Shown: positions 32,193 to 58,500 of the stretch, piece by piece
How the letters are laid out: every line of letters starts with the position of its first letter
Position numbering within the stretch: position 1 is the stretch's first letter
Origin: Candidatus Omnitrophota bacterium
Lineage (GTDB): Bacteria; Hinthialibacterota; Hinthialibacteria; Hinthialibacterales; JAKPRU01
Reading direction: 5' to 3'
Assembly: GCA_029570205.1 (NCBI GenBank)
Contig: JAKQSI010000045.1
Span: forward strand, 1 to 64,000
DNA length: 64,000 nt
The notes under the pieces: generated by a model
Told to the model about the DNA's origin: nothing
Seen by the model: the letters and a program-made list of their open reading frames with translations, nothing else
Databases searched by the model: none
Program-made: the position numbers and the translations under genes

Positions 32193-33113
32193 ATGACAAG
32201 GCCGACTCGTCCTCTTCTCACCCGACGTTCCTTTGCGCTCCTGACCGCCGTCGCTGCCGCCGATCTGGCCGTATCCCCTGTCCTTGGTGCAGAGATGGCC
32301 TCCGATTCACCCCATCGCGATATCAAAAAATCCCTCAAGCTGGGGATGATCGAGGAGGGTAAGACCTTCGAGGATAAACTCACGGTGGCAAAGAACGCAG
32401 GATTTCATTGCGTGGAGCCGGGGACGATCTACGACCGCAGCACTGTAGAGGAATTGCGCCGGGCATCCGAGAAAACCGGCATCCTTGTCGATGCTGTCGT
32501 CTGCGACAAGCACTGGAGTCATCCCCTTTCCGATCCTGATCCCGCCAAAGTAGACATCTGTGTCGAGTCGGTGCGCCTGAGCCTGGAAAACGCAAAGGAC
32601 CTCGGTGGTGATATGGTCCTCCTCGTTCCCGCCGTGGTCAATGAACAGGTCCTGTACGAACAGGCTTATGAGCGCTCCATGCGGGTCATTCGTGAGGCGA
32701 TCGTCCCGATGGCAACGGCCATGAACGTCGTTGTGGGAATCGAGAATGTGTGGAACAATTTCCTTCTCAGTCCGATCGAGTTTCGCAGATATGTAGAGGA
32801 AATCGACAGCCCGTATGTCCGCGCGTGGTTCGATATCGGAAATGTAGTCGCATTCGGATATCCCACCGGATGGATTCGGACTCTGGGACAACTGATAGCC
32901 CGCGTGGATGTAAAGGATTTCAAAGGCGGCCCGATGGTGGGGGGCGAGTTTGTTCCCCTGCGGCAGGGGTCAGTCCACTGGAATGACGTCATGAAGGCCT
33001 TTGATGAAATCGGCTACCAGGGAATCTTCGCCGCCGAGGTACAGGGCGGGAAACAGGATTACCTGATTGAAATGGTTTCGAAACCAATGGATATGATAAT
33101 TGCGGAGAAGTGA
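32193..33113 (+). CDS. Tat-exported sugar isomerase/epimerase-like TIM-barrel protein
   Basis: A 306-aa AP-endonuclease-2/xylose-isomerase-like TIM-barrel protein. It begins with a twin-arginine signal (LLTRRSFALLTAVAAADLAV) and an AxA-like cleavage region, a common feature of planctomycete-type and related isomerases. Strands with KLGMIEEGKTFEDKL, AGFHCVEPG, VVVGIENVWNNFLLSP (metal-binding Glu), AWFDIGNVVAFGYP (Asp) and VDVKDFKGG (Asp) match the family's divalent-metal site. The substrate is unknown; hydroxypyruvate-isomerase-like or inosose-type sugars are possible. GAGGAG lies ten bases before the ATG at 32193. It is seven bases from the DUF1638-hydantoinase gene and probably co-transcribed with it. 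Confidence 0.85.
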   Translation: MTRPTRPLLTRRSFALLTAVAAADLAVSPVLGAEMASDSPHRDIKKSLKLGMIEEGKTFEDKLTVAKNAGFHCVEPGTIYDRSTVEELRRASEKTGILVDAVVCDKHWSHPLSDPDPAKVDICVESVRLSLENAKDLGGDMVLLVPAVVNEQVLYEQAYERSMRVIREAIVPMATAMNVVVGIENVWNNFLLSPIEFRRYVEEIDSPYVRAWFDIGNVVAFGYPTGWIRTLGQLIARVDVKDFKGGPMVGGEFVPLRQGSVHWNDVMKAFDEIGYQGIFAAEVQGGKQDYLIEMVSKPMDMIIAEK

Positions 33114-33120
33114 ACATACA

Positions 33121-35994
33121 ATGGACTCTCCACACATTCATGTTATCGCGTGCGCTGTGTTGGCGGCTGATTTGAAAGCAGCGGCCGGTGAATTGGGATT
33201 AACTATTTCTACGCAATTTCTGCCCGGTGGACTCCATGAGACGCCCCAGGAACTGCGCAGGCGCCTCCAGGCGGCAATTGACGAGGTCTCGTCCGACAAG
33301 GGTATACAGCGAATCGCAATCGGCTATGGAGTCTGCGGAATGGGAACTTGCGGGCTTCACGCGCGAGACATTCCCCTGGCCATTCCAAAGGTTCATGACT
33401 GCATCGCGTTGTTTCTCGGCTCCGATCATGCTTATCGGGAACAGTTCCGAAAATGTCCGGGTACTTACTACATCTCCGCCGGGTGGGTGGACGAAAAGGT
33501 ACTCCCCGACTCCATGAAACAGACGGATCCTCTCCAATGCGGACCTCGGATTCTCCATCTCGACGAGATCGTTGAGAAATACGGGGCGGAAAACGCTGAC
33601 GCGATCCGTCATTTTCTGAATAGCTGGCAACGCAATTACCGGCGCGCCGCGTTCATCGAAACAGGCGTCGGAGGCCACAGGCGAAAATATGCGGAAATCG
33701 CCCGGAACATGGCCCGCGAATTCGGCTGGACATACGAAGAGCTTGTCGGGACTCACCGTCTCCTGAACCGATTGCTTCTAGATGAGACTTCTAATGATGA
33801 GGTGTTAATTGTTCCTCCCCATCACGAAACCGTCTATAACGGAGTAATGGAAACACTCCAGGCCGTCTCCCCGGTCGGGACCGGCCTGGCTCTTCCCGAA
33901 TGCCTGCTCTCCCTTTCCGCCTCTGCCGAAAAAGAGCAAAGAGCCGAGGCGTCATCGGCAATCACTCTGGGGCTGGGGATTGACGCGGGCGGAACATACA
34001 CGGACGCGGTGATCTACAGTTTTGAATCGAATCAAGTACTCGAGAAAGCGAAGGCACCGACCGCCAAATGGGACTTCACTGTCGGTATTCGGGAAGCGCT
34101 TTCCAAATTGAATGCGACGCGATTGCCTCAAGTCAATCTTGTCTCGCTTTCCACAACATTGGCAACAAACGCAATTGTAGAAGGCCGCGGACAAAAGGTT
34201 GGTTTGCTGATTATGCCGCCTTATGGTCTGTTCGATCCATCAGATATTCCCCATCGGCCGATCAGCATTATCGACGGCCGAATGGATTTTGACGGTACAG
34301 AAATCTCGCCGGTTAATCCCGATCAAGTGCGCGAAGTTATCCGACGAATGATTGAGCAGGACCATGTCCGCGCGTTTGCTGTAGCCGGATTTGCCGCCGA
34401 TTCCAACCCTGCACATGAGTTGCTAGTGAAAAGTATCATCCGAGAAGAAACCGGAATGAGCGTGACATGCGGCAATGACGTGTCCGATCTGATGAACTAT
34501 CGAGTTCGTGCGCAGACGGCTGCGTTAAACGCCCGAATTATTCCACTTTTGGAGGCTCTCATCGATCAGGTACAGATCGCATTACGATATTATTCCATTT
34601 CTGCTCCCATGATGGTGGTGCGGAGTGACGGCTCGCTGATGAGCGCCCGAGCGGCCAGACAGCGGCCTATCGATACTGTTCTCTCCGGACCTGCCGCAAG
34701 CGTAGCGGGCGCCCGATTCCTGTCTCGACTCGATCGCGCAACTGTGGTAGACATCGGCGGAACAACCACCGACATAGCGATCATTCGGAACGGAATTGTT
34801 GAGACATCGAAGAAAGGCGCCACCATCGGAGGCTGGCGAACCCATGTCAAGGCACTTGATATGCGCACATTCGGACTGGGCGGTGACAGCCTCATCGGCT
34901 ACCACAGACAACACATTCAAATCGGCCCGCGCCGCGTCACCCCCATTTGCCGGCTCGGCGAACAGGATACAAATAAAGCACTCGAATGGATCGAACAGCA
35001 TCTTGACTCGTTTGACCGATCCACAGATCGCCTGGGTATCCTTGCCCTGAACGCTCACAAGCCCGATTTTCAATTAACCGAAGTGGAGATGCGGATATTC
35101 GACATCCTCTCCGAACGTCCATACTCCATTCAGGAACTTTCTTCCCGCCTTACCGGAGACCTGTTCCGACCTGTTCCTCTCGAACGGCTGCAAGAACGGT
35201 ATGCAATTCAGCGATGCGGGCTTACTCCCACCGATCTCTTGCACATCGACGAGAAGATGCATCTGTGGAACCGCTCCGCGGCTGTTCGCTTTTGTGAAAT
35301 ACACTGCCGTCTGGCGCAAATCGATCTACGGGATTTTGTCCATTCGGTTCTCGAACAATTTATCAACAAACTGACAATGGAGATTCTTAAACGGGAGATG
35401 GCCGGGACGTGCGATGCAGAAGATATGGACAAATCCCTGTCAGCCGCTGCCTTGTTGCAAAACATGATGCGTGGCGGAGATTCCGACTACCAAGTGCGTA
35501 TACGGCTGAAACATCCGCTGATCGGTATCGGTGCACCGGTACACCATTTCCTCCCGCAAGTTGCGCGCCTCCTCGAAACCGAGGCCATTATTCCGCCCGA
35601 CGCGGACGTAGCCAATGCAATCGGCGCCATCACTAGTTTCGTATTAGTCCAGAAACACGTACGTATTTCCCCGACGCCGAACGGGACATACAATCTTTAT
35701 GGATTAGTCGATTCTCCCGTATTCAGTGATTTTGAAGAAGCACAAGCTTACGCCGTACGTTCTTTGAGGGATGTGATTCTCCGAAGCGCAGGCGAGGCAG
35801 GAACAAGTGAATCCCGAATCGAGGTCACCGCACAAGATCAGGTTGCCCCGCTTGCCGACGGAGGACAGCAATTCCTCGGTCGAACGATTACAGCACGCCT
35901 GACAGGCCGGCCGGATCTCGTGAGACTTCTCTCGGATACATGCGATGAATCACCGTTACTCCCAGCGGTTGCCGATGCTCCGCTGCGGCGCTGA
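33121..35994 (+). CDS. DUF1638 domain fused to hydantoinase/oxoprolinase-like ATPase
   Basis: A 957-aa fusion. Residues 1 to about 265 match DUF1638 (IHVIACAVLAADLKAAAG, GYGVCGMGTCGLHARDIPL, KVHDCIALFLGSDHAYRE, GTYYISAGWVDEKVLP), a family I recall being found near corrinoid-dependent methyltransferase genes. From about residue 280 an ASKHA-type hydantoinase A/oxoprolinase begins: LGLGIDAGGTYTDAVIYSFE (phosphate 1), LSTTLATNAIVEGRGQKVGL, VLSGPAASVAGARFLSRL and VVDIGGTTTDIAIIRNG (phosphate 2, near residue 542). The last 300 residues are less familiar. No methyltransferase or corrinoid protein is adjacent in this window. The ATG at 33121 is chosen; the ORF-track start lies inside the upstream gene. 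The 3' end overlaps the convergent NUDIX gene by 39 bases. Confidence 0.82.
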   Translation: MDSPHIHVIACAVLAADLKAAAGELGLTISTQFLPGGLHETPQELRRRLQAAIDEVSSDKGIQRIAIGYGVCGMGTCGLHARDIPLAIPKVHDCIALFLGSDHAYREQFRKCPGTYYISAGWVDEKVLPDSMKQTDPLQCGPRILHLDEIVEKYGAENADAIRHFLNSWQRNYRRAAFIETGVGGHRRKYAEIARNMAREFGWTYEELVGTHRLLNRLLLDETSNDEVLIVPPHHETVYNGVMETLQAVSPVGTGLALPECLLSLSASAEKEQRAEASSAITLGLGIDAGGTYTDAVIYSFESNQVLEKAKAPTAKWDFTVGIREALSKLNATRLPQVNLVSLSTTLATNAIVEGRGQKVGLLIMPPYGLFDPSDIPHRPISIIDGRMDFDGTEISPVNPDQVREVIRRMIEQDHVRAFAVAGFAADSNPAHELLVKSIIREETGMSVTCGNDVSDLMNYRVRAQTAALNARIIPLLEALIDQVQIALRYYSISAPMMVVRSDGSLMSARAARQRPIDTVLSGPAASVAGARFLSRLDRATVVDIGGTTTDIAIIRNGIVETSKKGATIGGWRTHVKALDMRTFGLGGDSLIGYHRQHIQIGPRRVTPICRLGEQDTNKALEWIEQHLDSFDRSTDRLGILALNAHKPDFQLTEVEMRIFDILSERPYSIQELSSRLTGDLFRPVPLERLQERYAIQRCGLTPTDLLHIDEKMHLWNRSAAVRFCEIHCRLAQIDLRDFVHSVLEQFINKLTMEILKREMAGTCDAEDMDKSLSAAALLQNMMRGGDSDYQVRIRLKHPLIGIGAPVHHFLPQVARLLETEAIIPPDADVANAIGAITSFVLVQKHVRISPTPNGTYNLYGLVDSPVFSDFEEAQAYAVRSLRDVILRSAGEAGTSESRIEVTAQDQVAPLADGGQQFLGRTITARLTGRPDLVRLLSDTCDESPLLPAVADAPLRR

Positions 35995-36405
35995 ACCCGT
36001 TTCTATCGCGACTATCAGCTCGCGTGTGACCGCAGGATAGATTGTCAGGCGCGGCAAGTCTGCCGGGGCAATCCACTGAGCATCCCGCAGCACCCTGTCC
36101 TGTGTAACATGCAGACTGCCCGATACAATCCGCCCCCAGTAATACAGATTTATCACATGCCGATGCAAATCCGGAGGAATGGATTCCGAAACCATGAACA
36201 AATCCTCAACGTCTACTTCGTATCCCGTTTCCTCCATTAACTCCCGGCTGGCTGCCGCTTTCAGAGTCTCCCCATATTTCACTCCACCTCCCGGCAAAAG
36301 CCAATACTTGCGCCCATACTTTTCATGCTGTACCAACAGTATTTTGCCTCCGTCGACAATCGCCACGGCAACACGAATTCTGATTCCCTGTTCTTCGTTT
36401 TCCAT
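35956..36405 (-). CDS. NUDIX hydrolase
   Basis: A 149-aa NUDIX-fold pyrophosphohydrolase. The catalytic box is complete (residues 40-62): G, five residues, E46, seven residues, R54ELMEETGY, matching GX5EX7REUXEEXGU. It is preceded by the strand IRVRVAVAIVDGGKILLV-type start and followed by ESIPPDLHRHVINLYYWGRI. It may act on nucleotide sugars, ADP-ribose or oxidised nucleotides; the sequence does not decide. It lies on the minus strand and its last 13 codons overlap the 3' end of the hydantoinase fusion gene in antisense. Confidence 0.9.
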   Translation of the reverse strand: MENEEQGIRIRVAVAIVDGGKILLVQHEKYGRKYWLLPGGGVKYGETLKAAASRELMEETGYEVDVEDLFMVSESIPPDLHRHVINLYYWGRIVSGSLHVTQDRVLRDAQWIAPADLPRLTIYPAVTRELIVAIETGSAPQRSIGNRWE

Positions 36406-36483: not shown

Positions 36484-37791
36484 CTACTCCCCCTGCGCTT
36501 GTCTTCCCATCGCGTTCCATATTGACGAATAGAAGGCTTTCCGTATCCTTTCCCGGTTACACATATCTCGCCTCGGATGAATCGCATTCGTGAGGAGGAT
36601 TGCAATAACATTATGTTCCGGATCAACCCAAATACTTGTTCCAGTAAATCCTGTATGTCCAAATGCGCGCTGTGACGGAAGCCCGCCATGAGCCGTTACC
36701 GCAACCGTCGGCCCCATAGACCACCAACCGATCAACTGTCCTTTGCCCTGAAGGAATGCCGATCCCCTTTCAATGGCTTCGGTAGATATTTGTGATGTGA
36801 GCATTTCCCCGACCGTCTCCGTTTGAAGAATCCGCACATCTCCATATCCGCCCCCATTGAGCAACATTTGACAGAATATGGCAAGATCCTCCGCTGTAGA
36901 GAATAAACCGGCGTGTCCCGCAATTCCCCCGAGACAGTATGCGTTTTCATCATGTACTTCCCCCATCATCAATCGGCCCAACCGTTCGGAATATTCCGTC
37001 GCGGCACAACGACTTCGCAGTGTTCTCCCGGGACGAAAACATGTATCATTCATCCCCAGTGGCCTGAAGATCTTTTCCTCCGCAAACCGATCCAGTCTTG
37101 TTTTCGATACCTTCTCAACGATCTCTCCCAGGACAATAAAGCCGATATCGCTGTAGACACGCTGATAACCGGGAGGCGCATCCAACTCTTGCTCGCAGAT
37201 CAGCCGAAGCACCTCATCCTTGTCTTCCGCCATCTCATAGTACGCGGAAGGTGACGCAAGTCCGGACGTATGTGTCAGCAAGTGCCTTACCGTCACGGTG
37301 TCCTTGCCCGCCTGACCGAACTCCGGCCAATACCTGCACGCGGGCGAATCCAGGTCGATCAATTCCCGTTCCTTCAGGATCAAGATACATGTAGTCGTCA
37401 CAATCACTTTCGTGAGTGAAGCCAAATCGAATACGGTCGAGGTTCTCATTCGAATCTTCTTCTTTGAGAAGTCGTCTATTGTATGCCCTGGCCCTTTCGG
37501 GCGACTATACAGCTGCGCATACCCAAACGCCCTGCGCCGAATGATTTTCCCATCCTTCGCAATCAGGACAACTGCACCAGGCGCGGCCTTCTCTTCAATA
37601 GCCTTCTGTATCTCTGCATAACCTTTATTCAACTCCTCGAAATCCATGCCTGCATCCCATGGATTTGCCCTTGAAAGAATCGGAAATCGATCCGGTCTCC
37701 GGGCCATTGACGGCAGGTTCAGCAACAAACATAGGCATAACAAGTTTACGGCGCGGAACACCGATACGTTTGCTGATGACAGGTTACTCAT
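36484..37791 (-). CDS. Secreted serine hydrolase, class C beta-lactamase/DD-peptidase fold
   Basis: A 435-aa member of the beta-lactamase-related serine hydrolases (esterase EstB, DD-carboxypeptidase, AmpC relatives). The nucleophile motif is S125LTK in VFDLASLTKVIVTTTC; the second motif is YSD in RVYSDIGFIVLGE (Y-x-N-like); the third is HTG in FGHTGFTGTS. HLLTHTSGLASP and GGIAGHAGLFSTAEDLA are typical of the family. The N-terminus carries a signal or anchor helix (AVNLLCLCLLLNLPSMA). The ORF-track start is a GTG at 37797; the ATG at 37791 with GAGG seven bases upstream is better. It follows the dikinase-like gene by about nine bases, so the two are probably co-transcribed. Confidence 0.9.
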   Translation of the reverse strand: MSNLSSANVSVFRAVNLLCLCLLLNLPSMARRPDRFPILSRANPWDAGMDFEELNKGYAEIQKAIEEKAAPGAVVLIAKDGKIIRRRAFGYAQLYSRPKGPGHTIDDFSKKKIRMRTSTVFDLASLTKVIVTTTCILILKERELIDLDSPACRYWPEFGQAGKDTVTVRHLLTHTSGLASPSAYYEMAEDKDEVLRLICEQELDAPPGYQRVYSDIGFIVLGEIVEKVSKTRLDRFAEEKIFRPLGMNDTCFRPGRTLRSRCAATEYSERLGRLMMGEVHDENAYCLGGIAGHAGLFSTAEDLAIFCQMLLNGGGYGDVRILQTETVGEMLTSQISTEAIERGSAFLQGKGQLIGWWSMGPTVAVTAHGGLPSQRAFGHTGFTGTSIWVDPEHNVIAILLTNAIHPRRDMCNRERIRKAFYSSIWNAMGRQAQGE

Positions 37792-37800
37792 TCTCACGCC

Positions 37801-40737
37801 TCAGTACACGTACCATTCTCGAATATCGACAGGCGGCAGATGGTCCGTGATTTCTTTTTGGAATGCTTCAATTTTGATATAGCGGAGCGGTTGCAGGTTG
37901 CAATCCAACGTATACACTTCGCGATCATAATCCGTTTCTCCCGTCAATACCGCAAGCCCGTATGTTTCGCCGACGGGGGGATCGAACAACACCCAGAATG
38001 TTTCGTTCCAATTGTGGTGATCCGCTGCGTAAACAAGATTCCAGTAATTGCCCTGTTCTACATAGCCTTCTTCGATGTCGACCTGCGCGTAGACTAGATT
38101 GGCAGGTCCCGTGCCGGCCATAGCCGGTTGCCAGCGTTCGTACAGATGGACCGACTGGCCGTTCTCCAATGCAAGGTCTATCCGATGAAGAGGCAGGCCG
38201 GCATAAGTCTCCGATGCATATCGGAGGAAATCAATCCGTACGCCGACCTGAATCCGGGCAAGCATATAAAGGTCCCGTGAAAGAAACGGCTCATCAAAAA
38301 TAATCATCGCAGGACTCGGCCCACCGTCCATGAGATTTGTAGAAAGATAGTCGATAAATAGAGAAAGAGTCTGCCCATTGAAATCGAATTCCTGATCGAA
38401 GCGAAACTCGACTCGATTTACCGGATTTCCGACTTCCTTGACAGTCAGTTTTCCGGGAGACAACGGCTGGAGAACGGTCCGCGCCGGACCGAACTCAAAA
38501 CGGTCGATCAGATCAAATGAATAGATGCCGGACTCCAGCGCCATCGCGTGATCCCCGGGCACGAGGTCAATGGCCGATAGATATTCATACTCTTGCTCCA
38601 GGCTTCGGCCTTCTTGAAACACTCCCACTACTCGCGTATTCTGCGGAATTCGCAAAACACATCTTTCCTCTTGCGGCGGCACAGCAGAGGTCATCAGCGT
38701 CGGGCGAACCTGTTTGATTACCAGCTTCCCCATGTCGTATTTGAATTCAATATCCAGACAGACTTGATCCCGCCGATACTCGCCGAGTTCAACCGGCATG
38801 TTCTGCTCGATGTCCCAGAGGACTCCTCCGATTTCGCGCAACTGATCCTCCGAAAGAACCCATTCTCCCTGCGGAAGCAAGGAGGAGGTGCGCACACGGA
38901 GAATTTCCGAAACCTGGCCGTCTGTAAACGTAAGCAGATCCTTTTCCGGAACAATTCCCATCTCGGGCAAAACCACACTATAATCGCCCGCTTGCACATT
39001 GATGACGAAATAGTTTTTCTTTCCCGAGACTGGATCACCCGTAAACGCGACGCCATTACAGTCCTCCCGGGGAAATGCTTTCGTCACAAGGATTCCCATC
39101 CGAACCTTGCGGTGATCAATCTGATAGTACTCCCTTTCTTCGAATGCCTTCGGATTCCACAGGCTTGCCCAGACAAGTTTCAGGCCGCGTTCAATCGTTC
39201 TCTCATCATCCTGGTCCGGTTGACAACGGCAAGGCCCTGTTTCATCCCCGTCCAGTGTGTCCTCGGCGCATACCGAGGTAGAGTCATACAGGCCCGCACC
39301 GTTAAACTCAATATCGTCCTCGGAATTGGATGAGGATCGAAACCGGACCATTACATCCGTTGACCCGTATACCTCCTCTATTTTTGCAACGATTCCAGAG
39401 ATAAGCACCGGGTCAATAACGCCCGTCAGGCGGATGACATCCTGGAAATGTTCCAGCTTCTGTCGCCGATATGCCGTATCGGTTTGAAAAGGAGAATCCT
39501 CCAGAAGTAAATTCAAATAGTCCTGAAATGTGATCCGGCGGAACGGGTCTTCGGGGTCTCGTATGGTATTGGAATTCATGAATTCCATGTAGTAATGAAA
39601 TGGAATCGCGAATCCGTCTACCTGGTATGCCTTGTCCAGGAAAGAATAGAGTCTCGCCAGTCCCGTCGCTTTTCCACCGAATCGTCGGATCAAAGGCTCC
39701 TCCTTCCAAACGCGGGCCAATTGCGGAAGACTTACCAGTTCCGAATATACATCATCGGGTTCCGGAAGCGGGGACAACACGGGCCGATGGGCGGTCCACC
39801 ATGCCTCCGCGTCCGCAAGTTCAACCGGTACGACCACTTCATACCTGTCGGTTTCCAGAATTAACTTAACGAGTTGACCGCTATAGGGTGCAAATATCTC
39901 TGTCGCGTTTCTCACATAGCCGTTCGGGGTACCCCGACGCAGGGACCGGACATTAACATGCGACAGTTCGCCCTGTTGTGTTCCGGTAATAACACCCGCC
40001 ACAACTGTCCCGATATCGGTCGGCGCAGTATCGACTACCACAATATCCTGCCAACCGATCAGACCGTGCTCTTCCGCCTCTTGGAGCTCGCTCAATGTGT
40101 ATAGGCGGACGCGACCGTAATTGGTTGCAGGGGAATAGGCCTCATAGTCGGGTGTGACAATACCGTCGGGAAGATAAATTGGGAATCCGGGCTCTTCCCA
40201 CTCCCGCGCCGTTTCTATGGCGACCGTTGTCTTCGGCGCGTAAGCAAAAGGGCGCAGGGTAATCGTCTGCGATAACAGTTGGTAGACATAAAGGACCTCC
40301 ACAGGAAGAGGCGGTTCGGACAGAGCCGAGTAAATATCGAATCCATAGAGAATCCCGCCTTGAGAATCCTGGAAACGGGAAATAGATCCCGCATAGTACC
40401 GACGAGAGGATCGCCGATAGACCAGGTCCAGGTATTCCGGTTCGGTCAATCCGGCGAAACGTTCCGGGAATTCTACTGCAAGAAACTCCTGGTGCAGCGG
40501 GTAGCGATTCACGTTCTGATAGACGGTGTGCAGTAACGCAGGATCGCTCGTCGCGGGGGCGGTAAACTTCCCTGTTCGAAGCAGGTCGGGGCGGCTGCGG
40601 TCCGTCACAGTTATCCTGTCGAAGTCCGTCTCGCTGTCGATCCTCGCCAGCCAGGCAGGTTCTTGTCCCCAGGCAAACAAAGCTATCCGGCACAGAAACG
40701 TCGCGCAATAGACCACAACTTTAATTTTCCCATTCAC
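37801..40737 (-). CDS. Exported PEP-synthase/glucan-dikinase-like protein
   Basis: A 978-aa protein with an N-terminal signal-like segment (MNGKIKVVVYCATFLC to AWGQ, interrupted by one Arg). A swivelling phosphohistidine-type domain is seen around residues 230-280 with GELSH260VNVRSLRRGTP, close to the LSHVSVRARN motif of glucan water dikinases. It is followed by a PPDK-N/ATP-grasp domain (about 350-690): RRFGGKATGLARLYSF, RFRSSSNSEDDIEFNGAGLY, KLVWASLWNPKAFEE, GVAFTGDPVSGKKNYFV, KQVRP. Histidine domain before ATP domain is the GWD/PWD order, opposite to PPDK and PEP synthase. The C-terminal 290 residues are unrecognised and beta-rich. An exported ATP-dependent enzyme is odd. GTG start at 40737; the next gene downstream is the serine hydrolase. 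Confidence 0.72.
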   Translation of the reverse strand: MNGKIKVVVYCATFLCRIALFAWGQEPAWLARIDSETDFDRITVTDRSRPDLLRTGKFTAPATSDPALLHTVYQNVNRYPLHQEFLAVEFPERFAGLTEPEYLDLVYRRSSRRYYAGSISRFQDSQGGILYGFDIYSALSEPPLPVEVLYVYQLLSQTITLRPFAYAPKTTVAIETAREWEEPGFPIYLPDGIVTPDYEAYSPATNYGRVRLYTLSELQEAEEHGLIGWQDIVVVDTAPTDIGTVVAGVITGTQQGELSHVNVRSLRRGTPNGYVRNATEIFAPYSGQLVKLILETDRYEVVVPVELADAEAWWTAHRPVLSPLPEPDDVYSELVSLPQLARVWKEEPLIRRFGGKATGLARLYSFLDKAYQVDGFAIPFHYYMEFMNSNTIRDPEDPFRRITFQDYLNLLLEDSPFQTDTAYRRQKLEHFQDVIRLTGVIDPVLISGIVAKIEEVYGSTDVMVRFRSSSNSEDDIEFNGAGLYDSTSVCAEDTLDGDETGPCRCQPDQDDERTIERGLKLVWASLWNPKAFEEREYYQIDHRKVRMGILVTKAFPREDCNGVAFTGDPVSGKKNYFVINVQAGDYSVVLPEMGIVPEKDLLTFTDGQVSEILRVRTSSLLPQGEWVLSEDQLREIGGVLWDIEQNMPVELGEYRRDQVCLDIEFKYDMGKLVIKQVRPTLMTSAVPPQEERCVLRIPQNTRVVGVFQEGRSLEQEYEYLSAIDLVPGDHAMALESGIYSFDLIDRFEFGPARTVLQPLSPGKLTVKEVGNPVNRVEFRFDQEFDFNGQTLSLFIDYLSTNLMDGGPSPAMIIFDEPFLSRDLYMLARIQVGVRIDFLRYASETYAGLPLHRIDLALENGQSVHLYERWQPAMAGTGPANLVYAQVDIEEGYVEQGNYWNLVYAADHHNWNETFWVLFDPPVGETYGLAVLTGETDYDREVYTLDCNLQPLRYIKIEAFQKEITDHLPPVDIREWYVY

Positions 40738-40782: not shown

Positions 40783-42252
40783 CTATCCTGATTCGGACGG
40801 CGGGTCGGATACATGCCGGTCACGCCGATCCCGGCGATCTGTCATACTCAGAAGCCCTGTCAGGACACAGGTTACCAGGACAGCCAGGGGGATATACCAA
40901 ACCCAGAAAATGTACGAATGAAAAAGCCTGTAGACCACGAGAACGGCTATTACACCGGCACACATCCCAATTGTGACGGCTCTCTGCGAACGGACGGAGG
41001 TGAAAATGGCCAGCAGAAACGATCCTAACAGGCTTCCATACGTAAATGTCGTCACTTTCAGGCCGGTTTCCAGGATGTTTGTGGACCCCTGTGCGCCGTA
41101 CGCAATAGCCATCAAGAGAACGCACCAGGCGACGGTTACCCACCTGGACCAGCGGATTTCACGGCTCGGATCGAGAGTGTCGCCGAAGAAAGGTCGTATG
41201 AAATCCGTCACGGTTGTGGCGGATAGAGAGTTCAGGGCGGAGGCGGTACTGGACATGGCTGCAGCGAAAATGGCCGCAATGACCAGCCCGCCGACCAGCG
41301 GGTTGAATTGCGTTCTAATAAAATAAGGAAAAATCTGGTCGGATTTCTCCAAGCCGGCAGGCGGTTCGGGATAGAAAACATAAAGCATAGCCCCGATCAG
41401 GAGGAAAAGTGTGAATTGGGCAAACACGAGAAGTCCGCTTCCGATGATCGCGCATTTCGCGCCACGGAGACTCTTGCAGGACAGAAGGCGTTGGACAAGA
41501 TCCTGGTCCGCTCCATGCGAGGCAAGAGTGAGAAATGTCCCACCGATTAACCCTGACCAAAACGTGTAAGAAAGACGAAAGGGAGAACTGAGGTCGAATA
41601 CCTGGAACTTCCCGGCTTCGGAGGCGATGTCAACAAATCGTTCCCAGCCTCCCGGTAGAAGGTGGAGAATCTGAAAGAAAGCGATCCCCGCCCCTGCCAG
41701 CATCACAAGCATTTGAAAGACTTCAGTCCATATTACGGCGGAGAGGCCCCCCAGCACTGTGTATACAAGTGAAACAAGTCCCATGAGAAGAATGGAAATT
41801 GTCATGGACCAATCGGTTACAGTGAACAGAACGAGCGCGGCGCAGTAATGGCGGACACCGGCCGCCAGGGCGCGAGTCACAAAAAAGAACAGACCGGCAA
41901 CCCGTTGAACCTCCACACCAAAACGCTTTCCAAGGTGAGCATAAATAGTGTAGATTTCCTCCCGGAAAAATGCCGGTAGAAAATAGACAGCCAGAATTAC
42001 TCTGGCCGCTACAAATCCCAACACCAATTGGAGAAAGGTCATCGAGCCGGTATACGCGATACTCGGAGTGCCGACATAAGTAACCGAGCTCGTTTCAGTG
42101 GCCACAACAGCCAGCAGAACCGCCCATGACGGGATGCTTCGTCCGCCCAGGAAATAATCCCGCAAGTTCTTCTGACGACGTGCAATCCAGGCTCCCACAC
42201 AGAGGAGAGCCCCCATGTAGACAGCAATAATAACGATCTGTATCTGCGCCAT
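40783..42252 (-). CDS. Sodium:solute symporter (SSS family)
   Basis: A 489-aa inner-membrane transporter with about 13 hydrophobic helices. Landmarks include the N-terminal IVIIAVYMGALLCVGAWIAR, DYFLGGRSIPSWAVLLAVVATETSS in two parts (the SSS core with the Na+-site), TVLGGLSAVIWTEVFQMLVM, ASHGADQDLVQRLLSCKS and AAIFAAAMSSTASALNSLSA. It imports an organic solute (sugar, sialic acid or a carboxylate) with sodium; the substrate is not clear. The ORF-track start at 42318 overlaps the small DUF1080-like gene; the ATG at 42252 lies just before helix 1 and is preferred, though it lacks a strong ribosome binding site. Confidence 0.92.
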   Translation of the reverse strand: MAQIQIVIIAVYMGALLCVGAWIARRQKNLRDYFLGGRSIPSWAVLLAVVATETSSVTYVGTPSIAYTGSMTFLQLVLGFVAARVILAVYFLPAFFREEIYTIYAHLGKRFGVEVQRVAGLFFFVTRALAAGVRHYCAALVLFTVTDWSMTISILLMGLVSLVYTVLGGLSAVIWTEVFQMLVMLAGAGIAFFQILHLLPGGWERFVDIASEAGKFQVFDLSSPFRLSYTFWSGLIGGTFLTLASHGADQDLVQRLLSCKSLRGAKCAIIGSGLLVFAQFTLFLLIGAMLYVFYPEPPAGLEKSDQIFPYFIRTQFNPLVGGLVIAAIFAAAMSSTASALNSLSATTVTDFIRPFFGDTLDPSREIRWSRWVTVAWCVLLMAIAYGAQGSTNILETGLKVTTFTYGSLLGSFLLAIFTSVRSQRAVTIGMCAGVIAVLVVYRLFHSYIFWVWYIPLAVLVTCVLTGLLSMTDRRDRRDRHVSDPPSESG

Positions 42253-42269
42253 AGAGTTTTTAGAAAGCC

Positions 42270-42704
42270 TCAGCATATTGTACACATAAAGATGTGCGCC
42301 CCGCATGGATATACCCATCGGTGCCCGGTCATACCGAACATCTGCACGGTATTTACTTTCTCAACATAAACCGGACGATTGCGGGTGACCGCCGCGATGT
42401 GGAGCGCGCTCAGGCAATCCGCGTTCAAGACAGGTTGTTGTCCCTTCCTGACGCGGAAAGTATGTTCGACCGGCAGGATTTGATCTTGCTTGGGACTTGA
42501 GCGAAGATCGGGCCGGCCGACCTTGTCGGCAACCGCTCGAATCCCCTCATCCGCAATTCGGAAAGCGTCCGGAGGCCCTTGGGCAATTTCCCAGCCGCTG
42601 GAGTCTTGACCATCGAAAGCAAGAGGCCACATATCGTCGGATTGGACGGACACCATCCCGGACAGGACAAGAATTCCCGTCAGAAAACCAAGGCATCTCC
42701 GCAT
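42270..42704 (-). CDS. Small exported protein resembling a truncated DUF1080 domain
   Basis: A 144-aa frame starting MRRCLGFLTGILVLSGMV with GGAGG six bases upstream, so translation is likely. After the signal peptide, MWPLAFDGQDSSGWEI looks like the opening strand of DUF1080 (concanavalin-like 3-keto-glycoside hydrolase) domains, typically F-G-D-x-x-GW. The remaining 110 residues do not follow the family and the domain is shorter than usual (about 180-200 aa). It may be truncated, a decayed paralogue, or a different small protein. It sits just upstream of the symporter gene on the same strand. Confidence 0.5.
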   Translation of the reverse strand: MRRCLGFLTGILVLSGMVSVQSDDMWPLAFDGQDSSGWEIAQGPPDAFRIADEGIRAVADKVGRPDLRSSPKQDQILPVEHTFRVRKGQQPVLNADCLSALHIAAVTRNRPVYVEKVNTVQMFGMTGHRWVYPCGAHIFMCTIC

Positions 42705-42849
42705 TCGAACCTCCTGGGAAAGGGCATGATGATCCGGCATTTATGCGCCGATTTTTATGATAACGCAAAATTGTTGCGGGTGGGACCGTACCGCTTCAGT
42801 GGCAGCATAATCCCCGGGACAAGAAATCAGGGAATTCGAAATGGGGTGC

Positions 42850-45208: not shown

Positions 45209-48200
45209 TCATTGTACGGTTTTGCGGACAGATCGATTGAGAAGCAGCCAGACTCCCCACCCCAGCCAGATCACCAATCCCAGACAAGACAACGAGAATC
45301 CCTGCGCAAACGAAGGCGGATCATAAACCATCCGCAGAGTATGACCACCCGCCGGAACGGCGATACCACGAAAGAATCGGAAAATCGGGAAGATATCCAC
45401 TTCCTCCTCGTCCAGCCAGGCTTTCCAATCCGGAAAGAACGGTTCGCTGATACACAGCAGTCCATCCTTCGGAGCAAATCCGGCTATTTCGATTTCCTCA
45501 GGAGAGGACTGTGTTACAAGCCATTGGGATTCGGAGGATTCCTTTCGGAGGTCCGATTCCAGGGCGATCGGATAGGCGGATGTCTCCGGCTGGGTCGCTG
45601 TCGGAGCAGGTTGGGGGAACGGAACAAAAGGCTTGCGAGCCAATTGTTCCTTGGCCCCACGGGACATCAGGACGGGGATCTGCAAAGCAGTCAACTGTGC
45701 GCTCCGTGCGGCGTCTAACTCTGCCGCTGCGAGATCCGGCGGAGGGGTGTTCAGTTCCGGCATGGGAAATCCTTCGACCGAAGTTCTGATAATGACATGT
45801 GTGCTGGAGGCAATCTCCACAGCGGACCCGGCAGTTGCGCCTTTCACACCAACAAAGGCATGTGCCCAGCGAAATCTCTTCCTGAGATCCAGCTCGCATC
45901 CCACCGCCCGGAGCGCCTGGATGGTCTCCGATTGAAGGATATTGCAGCCCTCATCGCGTACCGCACCGATCACAATCGCACCGTTGGGGAGATTTTCCAG
46001 GAAACGAATCATCCGGGAATTCTCCGGAGTCCCGGAAACAACCTGGCCGGTGGCAACATCCCAGTCCATGCCGATATCGAAGGAGTCTGTGGCAACAACG
46101 TTGTTGTTGATCGGGTCAAGCCATGCCAGGTTGTAGCCACGACGATTGGGCGCATAGTCCTTTCCGGAAACGATCAACGCGGCTCGGTCACTTTCAACAT
46201 CCCGGGGAACGGAATCGTCTTTGGGAGAGCTGAACAGGACAAGCGGAACTCGAAGCATAGCGGTCCCATCGCCGATGCGGCAAGAAGAAGCGGGCGGCAT
46301 GGAAATCGGGAACCGGCTGTGAGCCTCGTATAACTGTCGGGCATTGAAATGTCGAGTATCCAGAAAGATCTCCGGGGACGGTAGAGACGGTGGTGACAGA
46401 AACCAGGCCCCATCTACCTCGCTCATAATGAGGGCTTCTGTGGCGCTGACCACCTCCATTGCGGTTCCCGGCGGCATTCCCTTCACCCCGATCATGGAAT
46501 GCGCCAGCCAAAGGCGCTTGCGCAAATCCACACCGGACCCGCAGGACCACAACGCCCGGACCGCATTCTCCTGCAAGATGTTCGTGCCCTCTTCTCGAAT
46601 CGAGGCAAGAACGATATGACCGTTCGGAACGCTGTCCAGAAACCGAGCCATACGAGTGTTTTCCTGCTTTTCGGGAGGGGCAAATCCGGTGGAAGGATCA
46701 AAGTCCGCCATGGTGTTAAAACAATCCCGCTTGGTGACTTTCCCTGTTTGAGGATCCAAAACGGCAATGTTGTACCCGGTTCGGTTCAGGGAGTAGTTTT
46801 CTCCAGCGACCAGGATTACAGATTGATGCCGGACGGAGTTCTTGGAAATGCTCAGGCAGACAATCGGGGAAGGCAATACGGCTGAGACTCCGGGGATTCG
46901 CGCGGAGGCAACGCTCGACGGTTTGAATCGATCCAGGCCGACCAGTGCAACACGATCATAAGGGACACTCTGACTCGCCAGCAAAGCCGGAATCGAGGTC
47001 GGTTCGACAGCCCACCAGGAACCGTACCACCGAACCGGAGCAGAGACATCGGGATTTCGCCATAGATGCTCCTGAATTGGTTTCCATGGCCCCCCGGGAC
47101 CGGGAATATCCGAAAGGATGTATTCCGTATTCAGCAGGTCCAGAAACCGATGGTTGATACGCGTCGGATCTTCCAGACTGTGCAGGCCATTATTGCGCTG
47201 CACGTTGTAATAGGAGGGTCTCAGGGGACTCTCACCGTCCAACTCACGAAATCCGAACACCTGACCGTGATATTGGCGGCGGTCTTCACCTTCGGGACCG
47301 AACCGGATCTTGACTCGGCCCCGTGCAGGATTATCGAGAATCGTCTGTACGCATTCATCCCAAACATACTCCCCGGTTCTCGGTTCAATCTCGCGGGTTC
47401 CGTGAACAGTAGCCAAATCCCAGAAAACCAACAGAACAACAAAAGCGGAAAAAACCGTATGCGTGATTTTCCCTTGCGCATAGAGGACGGCCACCGCCAC
47501 AACAAGAAGGAGGCAAAGCAAAATCCAGCCGATCTGCCGGATCAACAGCGGCAACGAATCGGATATCTGTCCCTGAACAATGAAGAGACGAAGAACGATC
47601 AGAAGAAGAAAGGCAAAGAACATACAAAGGAACAACACTCCGAACGTGCCGAGATAAATCCGTGCAACATGATTCCGGGAGAAAACGCGGTCCCGCGTGA
47701 GAGCATCCAGTCCTCGTCCGGCCGCAAGCGCAACAGCCAGAGTTACCACAAAGACCCACCGACTTGACGCACGAAGCCAGGCTATTCCGGGGATAAACTC
47801 ATACGCCCACCGATGTGCCGCCGTGACATCCCCCAAAGCCAGGATGCCTGCCACTACGGCAATCAGGAGATAAAAGCCGGCCGGCCCTTTCCAGCGAAAC
47901 ACCGGTATACAAAACAACGCAATCAATGTTGTGGTAATCCCCCAGTAAAACACTTCGGCTCCGACATCCAGACCGGGGAGACGGACCGTTTCCGGCAATA
48001 CCGTATCGACAACCAGTTCCTCAATGGGAAGCGACAACTCCGAACTCGATTCATAGGTCGGACGGGCACGTTCTCCCTCGGTCACCAGCCCCCGCAGAGG
48101 AAGCCACTGCACCATGGTGGCAAGTCCGGCCACACCGACGAGCACGAGAACTGTCAGCCCGCGATGAAACGCCTTCGCCCGCTCCTTTGTTTCGGCTACG

Positions 48201-48865
48201 CAAACCGCCCACACCAGTCTGGCAAGCACAACAAAGGTGAGATAAATAGCCATTTGCGGATGGCCGCCAAAGTAGGTGCAGATCAGACAGCCTCCACAGA
48301 GCCACCCCGCCATTCGCCGTCCTTCAACCAGAAATTCCTCCAGGCAGAGGAGAATCCAGGGCAGCCAAACCGCCGTTTGGATGATATTGGAATGTATCTT
48401 GTGGGCTACCAGGAACCCGGAAAAGGTAAGAATGATACCGGCAAGCAGCGCAGCGGTATTCGTAAGCCCGTGTCTCCGACCCAGCATGGCCGTGCCCAAT
48501 CCGGCGAAAAACAAATGCAACAGAATCCATCTTTCAAAAATCGAATAGGAGAATCCATGCTCGCTCCAAAATGGAAGAAGCAGAAGGTTCGGCGGGTAGA
48601 AGAACGCCAACTCGGAGTTCGCGATCCCCGGCCAGCCCCCAAACAAATGTTCATCCCAGAGAGGAATATGCCCGTTCAGGAGCTCTCGAACGGCGAAAAG
48701 CCGGAACGGGTAATCTTTGAATTGAAGGTCTGCCCCGACATGTGAACGTTCATTGCGGTTCGGGGTCAGGATGGGCCAGAAGAACACGATCAGGAATACA
48801 AACAGCACCATCCCGATCGGCCAGACCGCAGATGGGAATCCTTTGCGAATCATCGGAAACCCCAT
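45209..48865 (-). CDS. YfhO-like membrane protein with two ILEI/FAM3-type domains
   Basis: A 1218-aa polytopic membrane protein. The N-terminal half has about 12 helices and the YfhO/GT-C-like hallmark DLQFKDYPFRLFAVRELLNG with HIPLWDEHLFGGWPGIANSE. The soluble part contains two tandem domains (about residues 682-815 and 895-1030) with the interleukin-like EMT-inducer (ILEI/FAM3) pattern: GYNIAVLDPQTGKV, FLDSVPNGHIVLASIREEG, RLWLAHSMIGVKG; and GYNLAWLDPINNNV, FLENLPNGAIVIGAVRDEG, RFRWAHAFVGVKG. It closes with the usual YfhO end (EPFFPDWKAWLDEEEV, VPAGGHTLRMVYDPP) and a last helix. YfhO proteins are linked to envelope glycosylation. AAGGAAC precedes the ATG at 48865. Confidence 0.85.
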   Translation of the reverse strand: MGFPMIRKGFPSAVWPIGMVLFVFLIVFFWPILTPNRNERSHVGADLQFKDYPFRLFAVRELLNGHIPLWDEHLFGGWPGIANSELAFFYPPNLLLLPFWSEHGFSYSIFERWILLHLFFAGLGTAMLGRRHGLTNTAALLAGIILTFSGFLVAHKIHSNIIQTAVWLPWILLCLEEFLVEGRRMAGWLCGGCLICTYFGGHPQMAIYLTFVVLARLVWAVCVAETKERAKAFHRGLTVLVLVGVAGLATMVQWLPLRGLVTEGERARPTYESSSELSLPIEELVVDTVLPETVRLPGLDVGAEVFYWGITTTLIALFCIPVFRWKGPAGFYLLIAVVAGILALGDVTAAHRWAYEFIPGIAWLRASSRWVFVVTLAVALAAGRGLDALTRDRVFSRNHVARIYLGTFGVLFLCMFFAFLLLIVLRLFIVQGQISDSLPLLIRQIGWILLCLLLVVAVAVLYAQGKITHTVFSAFVVLLVFWDLATVHGTREIEPRTGEYVWDECVQTILDNPARGRVKIRFGPEGEDRRQYHGQVFGFRELDGESPLRPSYYNVQRNNGLHSLEDPTRINHRFLDLLNTEYILSDIPGPGGPWKPIQEHLWRNPDVSAPVRWYGSWWAVEPTSIPALLASQSVPYDRVALVGLDRFKPSSVASARIPGVSAVLPSPIVCLSISKNSVRHQSVILVAGENYSLNRTGYNIAVLDPQTGKVTKRDCFNTMADFDPSTGFAPPEKQENTRMARFLDSVPNGHIVLASIREEGTNILQENAVRALWSCGSGVDLRKRLWLAHSMIGVKGMPPGTAMEVVSATEALIMSEVDGAWFLSPPSLPSPEIFLDTRHFNARQLYEAHSRFPISMPPASSCRIGDGTAMLRVPLVLFSSPKDDSVPRDVESDRAALIVSGKDYAPNRRGYNLAWLDPINNNVVATDSFDIGMDWDVATGQVVSGTPENSRMIRFLENLPNGAIVIGAVRDEGCNILQSETIQALRAVGCELDLRKRFRWAHAFVGVKGATAGSAVEIASSTHVIIRTSVEGFPMPELNTPPPDLAAAELDAARSAQLTALQIPVLMSRGAKEQLARKPFVPFPQPAPTATQPETSAYPIALESDLRKESSESQWLVTQSSPEEIEIAGFAPKDGLLCISEPFFPDWKAWLDEEEVDIFPIFRFFRGIAVPAGGHTLRMVYDPPSFAQGFSLSCLGLVIWLGWGVWLLLNRSVRKTVQ

Positions 48866-52575: not shown

Positions 52576-55500
52576 TCAAAAGTTCTTCGGCAGGACGAAA
52601 TCGCTCCGACATACCCACACGAAGTAGATTTCCTCCGGCGTTTCGCCCTGCGGCAAATCCATCCGCTGAAGAATCCGCATCAAGGCAAAATGAACCCCAT
52701 CCCGCAAAATAACAAAGTAGGAATTGCCCGGAACCACATTGGTGGAGAACACGGTATCTGCCTCCGTATCCAAGCTGTCGGCCAAGACACTGAATCGGCT
52801 GACATTGTTTAGAATTTCCTGGGCGCTGATAGCAAAAATGTCCGTGCTGCCGCCCAGGTTCATGATCCCCTGGTTCTTGCTTGTAACCGCCAGCCTGTCC
52901 GCAGACTCCAGTACGATATCGGCATCCCCGGGCTGAAGAGTAACGACCATCGCGCCATCCGAGAAGGAGAATCCATCCGGAATTTCCACCTCCAACTCCT
53001 CCTCCAAAGGACCCGGTTCTGTGTCGGAATTGGCGGAAATCTCCGTACCGTTGCTGTTTACACGCATTCGCTGCGGCATCCGAATACCGGTGATCTGAAA
53101 CTTTCCGTTGATGTTTTCCATCTGGAACTGAAATGCGCTGCTCCGCCAGGAGGCAATGTCTCCCGGATACCAGACCATCTCCATAACCGGGGGACCATAG
53201 TAAATGTTGTAAACCATCTGCTGGAACCAGAACATGAAGGTGTTGAGTCTTCCGGGGCCGTGATAACTGAACTTAACCCGCCTCTGTCGTTCGGCACCCT
53301 TGCTCTGGAATCCGAAATACTCCACACGACGATTTCCCGGAGCGGCAATAAGGGCTTTCAGTTTGGTGGTATTCTCCGCACCCTCAAATTCATCCCAGCT
53401 GAAATCAGTGAGGCTTTGATTCAATATGTTGTCAATATCGTAGACACTCAGATTCCACCCGCGTCCGTCGCCGACCTCCCGGATCGTAACAGTCTGGCTG
53501 AACGGGAATCCCGGTTCCGAACCGCTTGTGTTTGGAAAGCCCTGGATATCCGCATAGACCGTCTGTCCCTCTTCTATCTCCGCGACAAGCCGGTTGACCT
53601 GCGGCAGGAAATAGGTGGTTTCGACCTGGGCCGTCACAATTACCTTGTTGCCCTGGAACGTCACCATCAAGGCATCCTGGGCTGTTCCGACACGCATGGA
53701 TTTCATGTGGTAGAAATCGAAGAAACCTCCAAGGGAGCTCGAAAGTTTCGCGCGGTTCATTCCCTGGTCGTCGCTGTAACTGGATGCCGTCAGAGCCACA
53801 ATCGATTTCATATCTTCGCTTGAGTATGCAAGCAGTAAGTCGTTAATCAGGCCGGGGATATCGCGGAGATTATATGAGGCGGATTCGATATCAACCACGC
53901 GGTCATCCTGTATTCCCGGTTCGTCGCCGAACACAGCGGCGTCCCTCGGCATGATGACCGCCTCATGCGTCGCGGCATAAATGTGCCCACCACCATCCGC
54001 CAGAAGGTACGCGCGTTCTTTCCCGGCCATCTTTGCCAAACTTCGAAACACAGGCTCATCGGAAATCGGCGGACAATACGGCGGAAGATCGGCTCCCAGC
54101 CCGTACATGCGACCGTACGCATCCAGGACGATAACCCCGGAGACACCGCGGCCCGCGATGACCAGCTCCATATCTCGCGCCAAATCCTCTCCGAAACCGA
54201 GACTCCGGTTATATCCGCTCGCCGTTCCGCTCCCGTAGATGTCGCCGGCGAAGGTCAGGAAATACATTCCCTCTCCATCCGGTGTCAATTCCATATCGCG
54301 GTAGATACTTACACCGGGAAGTCGGATTGTCGGAGCAAGATTCCTCGCAGGCTCTGTGCCCAGCGCAACAAAATCTCCATCCATGTCCAGGATGAAAATC
54401 GTTCCCCGTTCGAAATCCACCTCCAGGTCACAGGCGGAATTGATGGTCACTCCCGAACTTGGATTGTCAATGGGATTGGACGGGAACACAATCTCCCCAT
54501 CCGCCGCGACTTTGTCGCTGAAGAGGCCGACATTGCCGACCGCGAACACTCGGCCATCGGCTGCCAGAACAACCGCACCCGAATAATCGGCGGTGAGTTC
54601 CATATCGATGGCGAGTGTTGTGCCGCCCAGAGCGGTAACATCGCTCAATCCGGCCGCTTCACCCAAGTTGAAGATTCGGCCGTCGCTGACCAGCTTGTAA
54701 TAATCCACCAGGTCGCCGGTCGGACTAACAGGAATCCCGCCCGTTCCGGGAGACCCCGTGCTAGCCAGCGCAATCGGGCCATCTGCGTAAATCAACTGCG
54801 GATCGCTGATTCCATCGGTGATACTGGCGTAGATATAGTAATCCAGCGCCGGATCGAATCCCGGAATGTCCTCGGTCAGGTTTATCTTATAGCGGGTATC
54901 AACGCCCTCGGTCAGGCCGGCAACCAGCAGGTATCCGTCGAATCCCTTGTTGTCGGTATCCACATAGAGAGTAATCGTGGCGTCATTATCCGGGTCGACA
55001 GCCTCCCAGGATATCTCATACTGTTGGTACTCGTCCGCGTAATTCCGTCCGGCTTTCGGGGACAGGAACTTGAATGTCGGCGGGACATTCGCGCTGCGCA
55101 CAACGAGAGCGGATGTAACCACCGATCCGGTGCTCTTCCCCGGGAATCGGTCGGAATAGACCTGGTTGCAGTCCGTGAACGAGAGATACGTAATTGCGCC
55201 GGCGCCCATACGAACCTGAAACCGGTCGCCGACCTGTGCCGTCTGCGCAGCCCGAAGAACCACATAGTAATCATTTCCCCGCAGGACCCCGTATTCTTCG
55301 TCCGGAATCTGGATCTGGTATTCGTAAGAAATGTCCTCGTCGTTAGGAATACTTCTCAGCTGAAGGGTCTCCTCCGGGTCGGTAATGGTCACCTCCGTCG
55401 GTTCCGGAAGGGAATCCGGATCAAATTCCGGCGGCTCGACACTGCTCGGATCCTCCGCTTCCGCTCTCTCTTCGTTGTAGGCTTCCACTTCCTCATTCCA

Positions 55501-58500
55501 GGCATCGATGGCATCCTGAAGGGCTTGCATGTATGCATCATGCGCGTCCGAAATTGACGTAACAATCTGTTCGAAATAATCGTACAGCTGTTCAGGCGCT
55601 ATGCCGGTAGTCACGTACCAACCTTTTTGGCTTAAATCGGCTGTGGCATTCCCACCTTCCGGATTGCTCTCGCTGATTCCCTGATCGTTGGCAAGCATGG
55701 GAACCAGGCCCATTCGGTTAAAGACCGTGTACGGGTCTGCAAATCGAAGCGCTCGCAAACTGACCGAGTCCTCCGACGGGACAATCCCAATCGGTGTTCC
55801 ATTCTTGCTGAAGATTGTAGCGAGGTTAATCGGTTTCGGGTTTCCTGCGGCGCCGGCAGCGCTGATGATCGCGTCTCGGATCTTTCCGTCAAAACTAACA
55901 ATCAGTTTCCAGTCGGGAAGGTAGAACTTTCCGTCGTCCTCCGCTTGGCTGGGCTGCCACAGATATGGTAACACAGCGGCGAGAGGCAAAGTCAAATCAA
56001 TGACCGGTGTGTCCTTATCCCCGGTAAGACGGAATTGCCAATTGGGCTGCCGAGTCTCTCCCAGGTTGAGCCAGGACATGCAGTCACGAGCCGCCCACGG
56101 AAGACTACCGATTTTCAACACCCGCAGATCGAACACAGCGCGGTACGCCCCGTTGCTGATCGGCACAAGAGGCGAAAACGCCAAGTCTTCCGTGATTTCC
56201 ATCCCCGCCTCCGTCGGATTGAGGGGATCGGGAACAAACAGACCATGATTGACCGCCCGCTTATACATGCTTGCCCACGTATTCGGGCCGCTGACCGGAA
56301 TCCTTACAGATCCGTAGTGATCGTCAATCGGCAGGATGAAGTTATCGTAGGCATCGAAAACACCATTGATTCCTCTCGGATCCCCATCGCCGCAATCTTC
56401 ATCAATTAAGCCGTCACCTTCGTCATCGATCATGTTGACAACTTCTTCATCGATCATCCCGTCCCCATCATTGTCGAATCCGTCTCCGACCGGCGTGTCA
56501 TCATCTTCGTAAAGAATAACCTGATGCTCGGACACCATATTGTTAAGAGAAGAGTCGATCCCCTGGGCGTTTGTGGCTCCATTGATAATGCGTGGGTTAA
56601 AAACCGACTCCCCGGGGGCGGGCAGGAAGTCGACCGTGAGAGTGTCCAGAACGGTACCTTCCGTAAAGAAGACAGCTTCCTCATCGGTTCCGACGGTATT
56701 ATTGAACATCAGGTTGGTGTTCTGTCCGTAGTCCACCGCGTTGATACCGATGACCGCTTTCGGAGGCGACCCCAGCTGCGGGCCTGACAGGATATTATTG
56801 TTGGTTGCGTTATCCCCCGGTCCCGGTATGGTGAGATCCTGAAACGTGAATGTCGGACGCGGACGCCCGATCAGGGGATTTGTGTGGGTGAGTGTTTCGC
56901 CGGGACGTTCCGGCAGAAGACGGTCGTACCCCAGTCTCGGCTGACCCACCCTGGAGTACGATGGCAGCGTCTCAATATCCGTGGCTCCCCGCACAAAACG
57001 CTCCAACTGTTTGCCGATGGTTATGTCGCCGGGAAGAATAAATGGAAGAACACTGTACAGATTGCGGATCTTGTCGCTCGTCTTCACAGCGATATACAGT
57101 TCCGGGCGATCTGTATCCAACGCCACACTGTCTGAAGAGGGAACCCGGAGAAGTTCTTTCGGGTTGTTGTGAGAAAGCGGGAGAACCATGGTGAACCCGG
57201 TGATAAGTTGCCGACCGAACAATTCCGTGCTGTTATCGATTCCATCGCCGTCATACATCCCGTCCTCGTTCGCATCGGCAGATTCGAGGGCGGCATCCGC
57301 CAGGAGAGCATCAATCATTTCACGAGACAGACCCAGAACATACTTGCCGGTATCCCAGCTGAAATCCCTTGGGGCAACCCGATACGCATCGACCACTCCC
57401 GAAGCAATTTTGTATCCTTGAGGCGGTGCGTATTGGCCGTATCTCTGCATAAGCTCCGCCAAACCGGGTGTCAACAGAAAATCCAGCGGAACATCATCCA
57501 GCAAGAAAGACAACTGGACCTCGCCAGTGATCGGGCTGCGCGGCAACGCACTCCGCCTGGACTTGAGAAGCGTTGCGGGGAGCAAACGATTGATGATCTC
57601 GCGGGGAAGTGTCGTCACATCCAGAGTCTCGAATCGAACGCCATCCCCCAAGGTCAGCCGCCGGTCAAGGTTGCTTTCGTAAAGGCCTTGTACTCCACCG
57701 CTGCCCTCGGTGAATAGAAAAATCCCACCCTCGCCATCCTGAAGAAGGTCAAGAAAGATTTCAGGTGAAACCAGGGTAGGCACATCCATCCCACGGTCCG
57801 CCAGGTATTTAGCTCGATTGGGATTGGCTCGATTGAAAATACTCAAACCCCGTTCGTCCGGCTTAGCGAGCGGAGGCGTAAACACTTCATACCACGATGG
57901 ATTCTGCAGGAACTTCGGAACATGTATGTAGTAGTTCGGGAAGGTGTCATACGGATTCGCATTGCCAATGAACCTGGACGGTCCGTTGACGTATCCCAGA
58001 AAAATGTCATCTATGCCTGCCCAGCCCAAAGCGGTGCTGCCAGGCAAGAATTGCGGCCCATACAGCCAGCTGATGGGATACAAGTCGATCCCGATAAAGT
58101 TGACCCGGACTTCCTTGACGAAATACTCCTCGGTGGGCGCTCCGACCAAATCCATCGCCAGAATGGTTGTCGGCTCAGAACGGTTGATGATCCGCTGGCC
58201 GACCGTGGTTCGGTTGTAAATCTGGACAATATCGCCCTGGAAAATCGCGCGATTCCGAAACTCCGGAAGTATGGCCAGCCCACCCAGCTGAGTGGAGAAA
58301 TTCGTGGCAAAATCCTCTGAAGGGAAATGATAGTCGAATCGTCGAAAGACACCGACACTGGGATCGCGATCCTCAATCCGAATCATGCCCGGAGTCATGT
58401 ATGCCTCAAACGCATCGCCCTGTCGCAGTTCAATGCTGGTCTTGGCAACAATATAAAACTCCGGAAACCCGTCGCTGTTGATCGGAAGCTGTGTAGAGCC

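Follow-up and report, generated by a model that had tools for sequence, protein, structure and literature searches.

Glucan-water dikinases (GWD), which phosphorylate alpha-glucan at C6 or C3, carry their catalytic histidine domain ahead of the ATP-grasp domain, with an LSHV-type histidine motif, a CFATC redox motif after that histidine and N-terminal CBM45 starch-binding modules. High-resolution GWD structures are missing (PMC12892837). In rifampin phosphotransferase, the catalytic histidine (His825) follows the ATP-grasp domain, and mutation of Lys22 or Arg117 abolished rifampin resistance (PMC4844700). A putative dikinase, GWD-like in its architecture, is encoded in the window, the term used here for the whole 64,000-nucleotide stretch of DNA that was analysed. 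The open reading frame (37801..40737, minus strand, as are all features of this gene given below) has a GTG start and no internal stop codons. Its 978 residues comprise, from N to C terminus, a charged and hydrophobic N-terminus, an N-domain (residues 27-204; 40126..40659), a swivel domain, an ATP-grasp domain and an all-beta C-domain (residues 690-978; 37804..38670). Comparison with the congeneric copy in genome G001 yielded a dN of 0.087 and a dS of 0.913; dN/dS is ~0.1 overall and low across the N-, His-, ATP-grasp and C-domains, and the gene is under purifying selection. The remaining PPDK_N proteins of this genome are encoded by separate genes on other contigs.

Pfam recognizes one family in the protein, PPDK_N (residues 352-685, E=4.8e-20, 72.5 bits vs a cut-off of 27), and the N- and C-terminal regions remain unrecognized, as had been noted from the sequence; the N-domain is conserved in relatives and matches no Pfam family. 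The ATP-grasp domain as delimited here spans residues 350-685 (38683..39690) and includes Lys356, Arg465, Arg467, Glu664, Gln676 and Arg678. An AlphaFold model of the protein has a mean pLDDT of 69.7, with the ATP-grasp region mostly at 80-94, and a Foldseek search with this part detected rifampin phosphotransferase (5hv6_A, E 1.4e-11, TM 0.76 on target) and also PEP synthase. N-terminal to the PPDK_N domain, at ~residues 205-300 (39838..40125), lies a putative phosphohistidine-type swivel domain with invariant YGR, DI, TG, LSH, R and PN positions and the expected beta/alpha order in the model. The proposed phosphorylated histidine, His260 (39958..39960), sits within QGELSHVNVRSLRRGTPN, in an LSHVNVR motif, and in the model a helix is predicted to begin at residue 260 between strands, as in phosphohistidine swivel domains. 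Residues L258, S259, H260, R264, P271, N272, K356, R465, R467, S468, S469, N471, E473, D474, G480-Y484, E664 and Q676 are invariant in the alignments, as is Arg678 in the core alignment. The L-S-H triplet does not vary in relatives down to ~30% identity, with S-H also found in more distant families, and His260, Lys356, Arg465/Arg467, Glu664 and Gln676 are retained over the same range in both phyla in which the family was detected. Judging from the motif, the lysine and the RSS arginine probably correspond to Lys22 and Arg117 of rifampin phosphotransferase. The active site is apparently intact, and no match was found to any family whose catalytic residues are lost.

The order of histidine domain before ATP-grasp domain agrees with the GWD-type order and upstream histidine motif claimed in the preliminary description; the wider claim of likeness to GWD held for domain order but was not supported in the strict sense. 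The histidine motif matches the Pfam GWD1_pHisD model (PF22973) weakly, below cut-off everywhere (E 0.33 in its own genome and 8.7e-4 at best in a relative). In most genomes tested the family protein was the only or the best place for this model, and sub-threshold matches also appeared in 5 of 14 unrelated control genomes. No CBM45 module, nor any other CBM family, matched the protein in Pfam. Unlike GWD, the protein has LRRGTPNGY in place of the CFATC motif, and an apparent export signal and an extra C-terminal beta domain. Because PF22973 is sub-threshold and no CBM45 was found, the protein is described as GWD-like in architecture rather than filed as a GWD, and identity with plant GWD is not established. 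One motif quoted as GWD-like, WASLW, is not specific, since PEP synthases carry it too (8a8e alignment). The protein shares with PEP synthase and PPDK the PPDK_N ATP-grasp domain, its conserved catalytic residues and WASLW, but differs in placing the histidine domain first and in its predicted export; the PEP/pyruvate barrel (PEP-utilizers_C) has no Pfam match in it, the C-domain being all-beta. The NCBIfam models for PEP synthase and rifampin phosphotransferase match the ATP-grasp part only and far below their cut-offs (40 bits vs 598); by no model cut-off is this a PEP synthase. Rifampin phosphotransferase resembles it in ATP-grasp fold and presumably in swivelling-histidine chemistry, and differs in the position of its histidine and in a rifampin-binding domain not seen here.

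Protein searches identified homologs within the same genus (84% and 95% identity), in two genera of the same order (51–53%), in one genus of the same class (49%) and in a genome of another phylum (33%); in all, relatives occur in five genera of its own class and in a second phylum. The core was detected at E<=1e-30 in 7 of the 386 genomes sampled, a single one of which lies outside the class; the family is therefore rare in this sample. In the second phylum 51 of 85 genomes were positive, all from two genera of one family. A contig search returned a MAG labelled Candidatus Omnitrophota as the sole named relative, a tblastn search of plasmids gave weak matches only, and a search of the open-access literature found no secreted GWD-like family. 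More distant families have the same His-then-ATP-grasp order (hhalign probability 100%, E 2.9e-42) and the same key residues. These include a Streptomyces "PEP/pyruvate-binding domain-containing protein" (WP_331760287.1) and a protein of genome G258, both of which, unlike the window protein, lack a signal peptide, and an exported-looking protein of genome G378, present in 1 of 7 genomes of its phylum, whose N-terminal region differs from that of the window protein. In genome G444 (contig C39, 56074-57523, plus strand) the family gene is broken into a pair of adjoining ORFs, likely by a frameshift or assembly error.

We give roughly even odds to the reading that this member of the PPDK/PEP-synthase superfamily, with its GWD domain order, is a catalytically competent dikinase exported to the periplasm or cell surface, and that its substrate, most probably a polysaccharide or glycoconjugate, belongs to the envelope or lies outside the cell; the protein's actual export, activity and substrate class are what we infer. 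By analogy with GWD (PMC7569903) and rifampin phosphotransferase, His260 of the swivel domain would be phosphorylated from ATP bound in the ATP-grasp domain, leaving AMP and phosphate as further products. From His260 the phosphate would pass to a substrate, most probably a glycan of the envelope or surroundings, that the N-terminal domain, the C-terminal domain or both would hold. The broader proposal, that some bacteria phosphorylate envelope or extracellular glycans through a secreted GWD-type dikinase fed by extracytoplasmic ATP or another phosphodonor, as a counterpart of starch phosphorylation, is offered only tentatively.

The glycan or cell-wall context first read from the neighbouring genes proved suggestive only: glycan-type neighbours do occur, but they vary between lineages and the link is circumstantial. 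In genome G013, glgA-glgC lie ~5 kb from the family gene, with a 3-keto-disaccharide hydrolase also nearby, and in G006 a DUF3417 glucan phosphorylase lies ~2 kb away; the GlgA, GlgC and phosphorylase enzymes act in the cytoplasm, however, which counts against an extracytoplasmic glycan link, as does the lack of any recognized carbohydrate-binding module in the protein. Family genes of the second phylum neighbour LamG, GH36N-like, Kelch/NANM-like and CBM9-like genes. The window copy is preceded after a 45 bp gap by a sodium:solute symporter (SSF; 40783..42318, minus strand) and followed 3 bp past its stop codon, in operon-like fashion, by an exported PBP4B-like serine hydrolase (36484..37797, minus strand), both arrangements being kept in G001. 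The last gene of the apparent operon encodes a NUDIX hydrolase (35956..36405, minus strand), and a similar-sized gene occupies the same place in G001. This arrangement is also compatible with an exported and active dikinase that phosphorylates a small molecule or protein instead of a glycan, much as rifampin phosphotransferase acts on an antibiotic. The closest solved fold is indeed that enzyme, and on a plasmid, the distant Streptomyces relative that shares the domain order is grouped with genes for an ATP-grasp protein and an MFS transporter. The exported LamG, GH-like and CBM-like neighbours in the second phylum speak against such a substrate, as do the N- and C-domains, which by Pfam and fold search are unlike the rifampin-binding domain, and we consider it unlikely, though worth keeping in view.

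The evidence for export also bears on the contrary reading that the enzyme stays inside the cell, its helix misread or serving as an anchor, and acts on glycogen as a true GWD. The window copy begins with a signal-peptide-like sequence, MNGKIKVVVYCATFLCRIALFAWG|QEP (residues 1-24, 40666..40737), with a positively charged n-region, a hydrophobic core and a possible SPase I site (AWG|QEP); an Arg within its helix is replaced by Gln in the two congeneric copies. In all 36 non-redundant members whose start could be read, a K/R-rich N-terminus leads into a hydrophobic stretch, a feature that ten PPDK/PPS-type proteins without signals mostly lack. As judged by simple hydropathy and charge measures, the median N-terminal hydropathy is 2.67 in these 36 members vs 1.2 in the ten others, though the ranges touch (1.72-3.26 and 0.43-1.87). 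In some members of the second phylum no clear cleavage site is evident, and these proteins may be anchored. Four further features appear to agree as independent marks of export. In G013, the core closes a 1887-residue protein in which a signal peptide, 15 FG-GAP repeats and a Thr/Pro-rich linker come before it. In the second phylum, all 29 long members carry an EF-hand loop after the helix (25 with the strict pattern and 4 with a variant, Asn at position 9). G006 and G007 encode the C-domain as a separate protein, preceded by a signal peptide of its own. Lastly, an acidic insert in the ATP-grasp domain (39208..39282) contains a Cys490/Cys505 pair, possibly a disulfide, which is found in all class members examined and absent from the second phylum. 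On these grounds the family is apparently always exported, consistent with the preliminary description, and neither hydropathy nor charge gave any cytoplasmic indication. A cytoplasmic enzyme would have ATP at hand and would suit glgA-glgC and the glucan phosphorylase near two relatives, but the positive charge ahead of the helix in all members predicts that the rest of the protein lies outside and, together with the fusions, EF-hand, separately exported C-domain and cysteine pair, makes this location, including the suggested anchor with a cytoplasmic domain, improbable.

The main weakness of the exported-dikinase reading is its extracytoplasmic phosphate donor, as no ATP pool is known to be established outside the bacterial cytoplasm; the rarity of the family also counts against this reading. 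The lack of such ATP makes an exported nucleotide-binding or scaffold pseudoenzyme, its phosphotransfer lost or never used, a natural expectation, yet no computed result favours it and neither the histidine nor any ATP-site residue checked varies down to ~30% identity, whereas binding alone would not require the histidine, so that we think it quite doubtful. A full catalytic set, in two phyla and apparently always exported, raises the question of the extracytoplasmic ATP source and of the phosphorylated target. Precedents for phosphorylating secreted or surface-layer material are Fam20C and CotH, kinases of the secretory pathway and spore coat, which have a protein-kinase-like fold and use no phosphohistidine intermediate. 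If active, the exported dikinase would bring dikinase chemistry to the cell surface, and the family would provide compact bacterial models of GWD.

Within the order, the stand-alone C-domain is confined to genomes that also have the dikinase. The copies with signal peptides (L015:1420-2400 and L016:1462-2448) both come from genomes with the fused form, and one of them adjoins an exported CBM9 protein. A fold search with the C-domain found nothing significant; AttH, a 25-phosphosteroid lyase and a pericyclase were among the top insignificant folds. A kinase-plus-lyase scheme prompted by the lyase was dropped, as the words dikinase, phosphohistidine and ATP-grasp were all absent when the 25-hydroxy steroid kinase paper was searched for them.

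Several other features of the window were observed. A short exported-looking ORF without a Pfam match (42270-42740, minus strand) overlaps the symporter gene; it resembles by eye the start of a 3-keto-disaccharide hydrolase and is possibly a gene remnant. A 2138-residue exported-looking protein (52576-58992, minus strand) has no Pfam matches at E<=0.01. The ORF at 33100-35994 (plus strand) fuses a DUF1638 domain to a hydantoinase/oxoprolinase A protein, and that at 45209-48865 (minus strand) encodes a YfhO-like membrane protein with two ILEI (interleukin-like EMT inducer) domains, an unusual combination for a bacterium. Positions 1-335 hold a tandem array of a 26-bp unit (~12.9 copies, 97% matches) that begins at the window edge.
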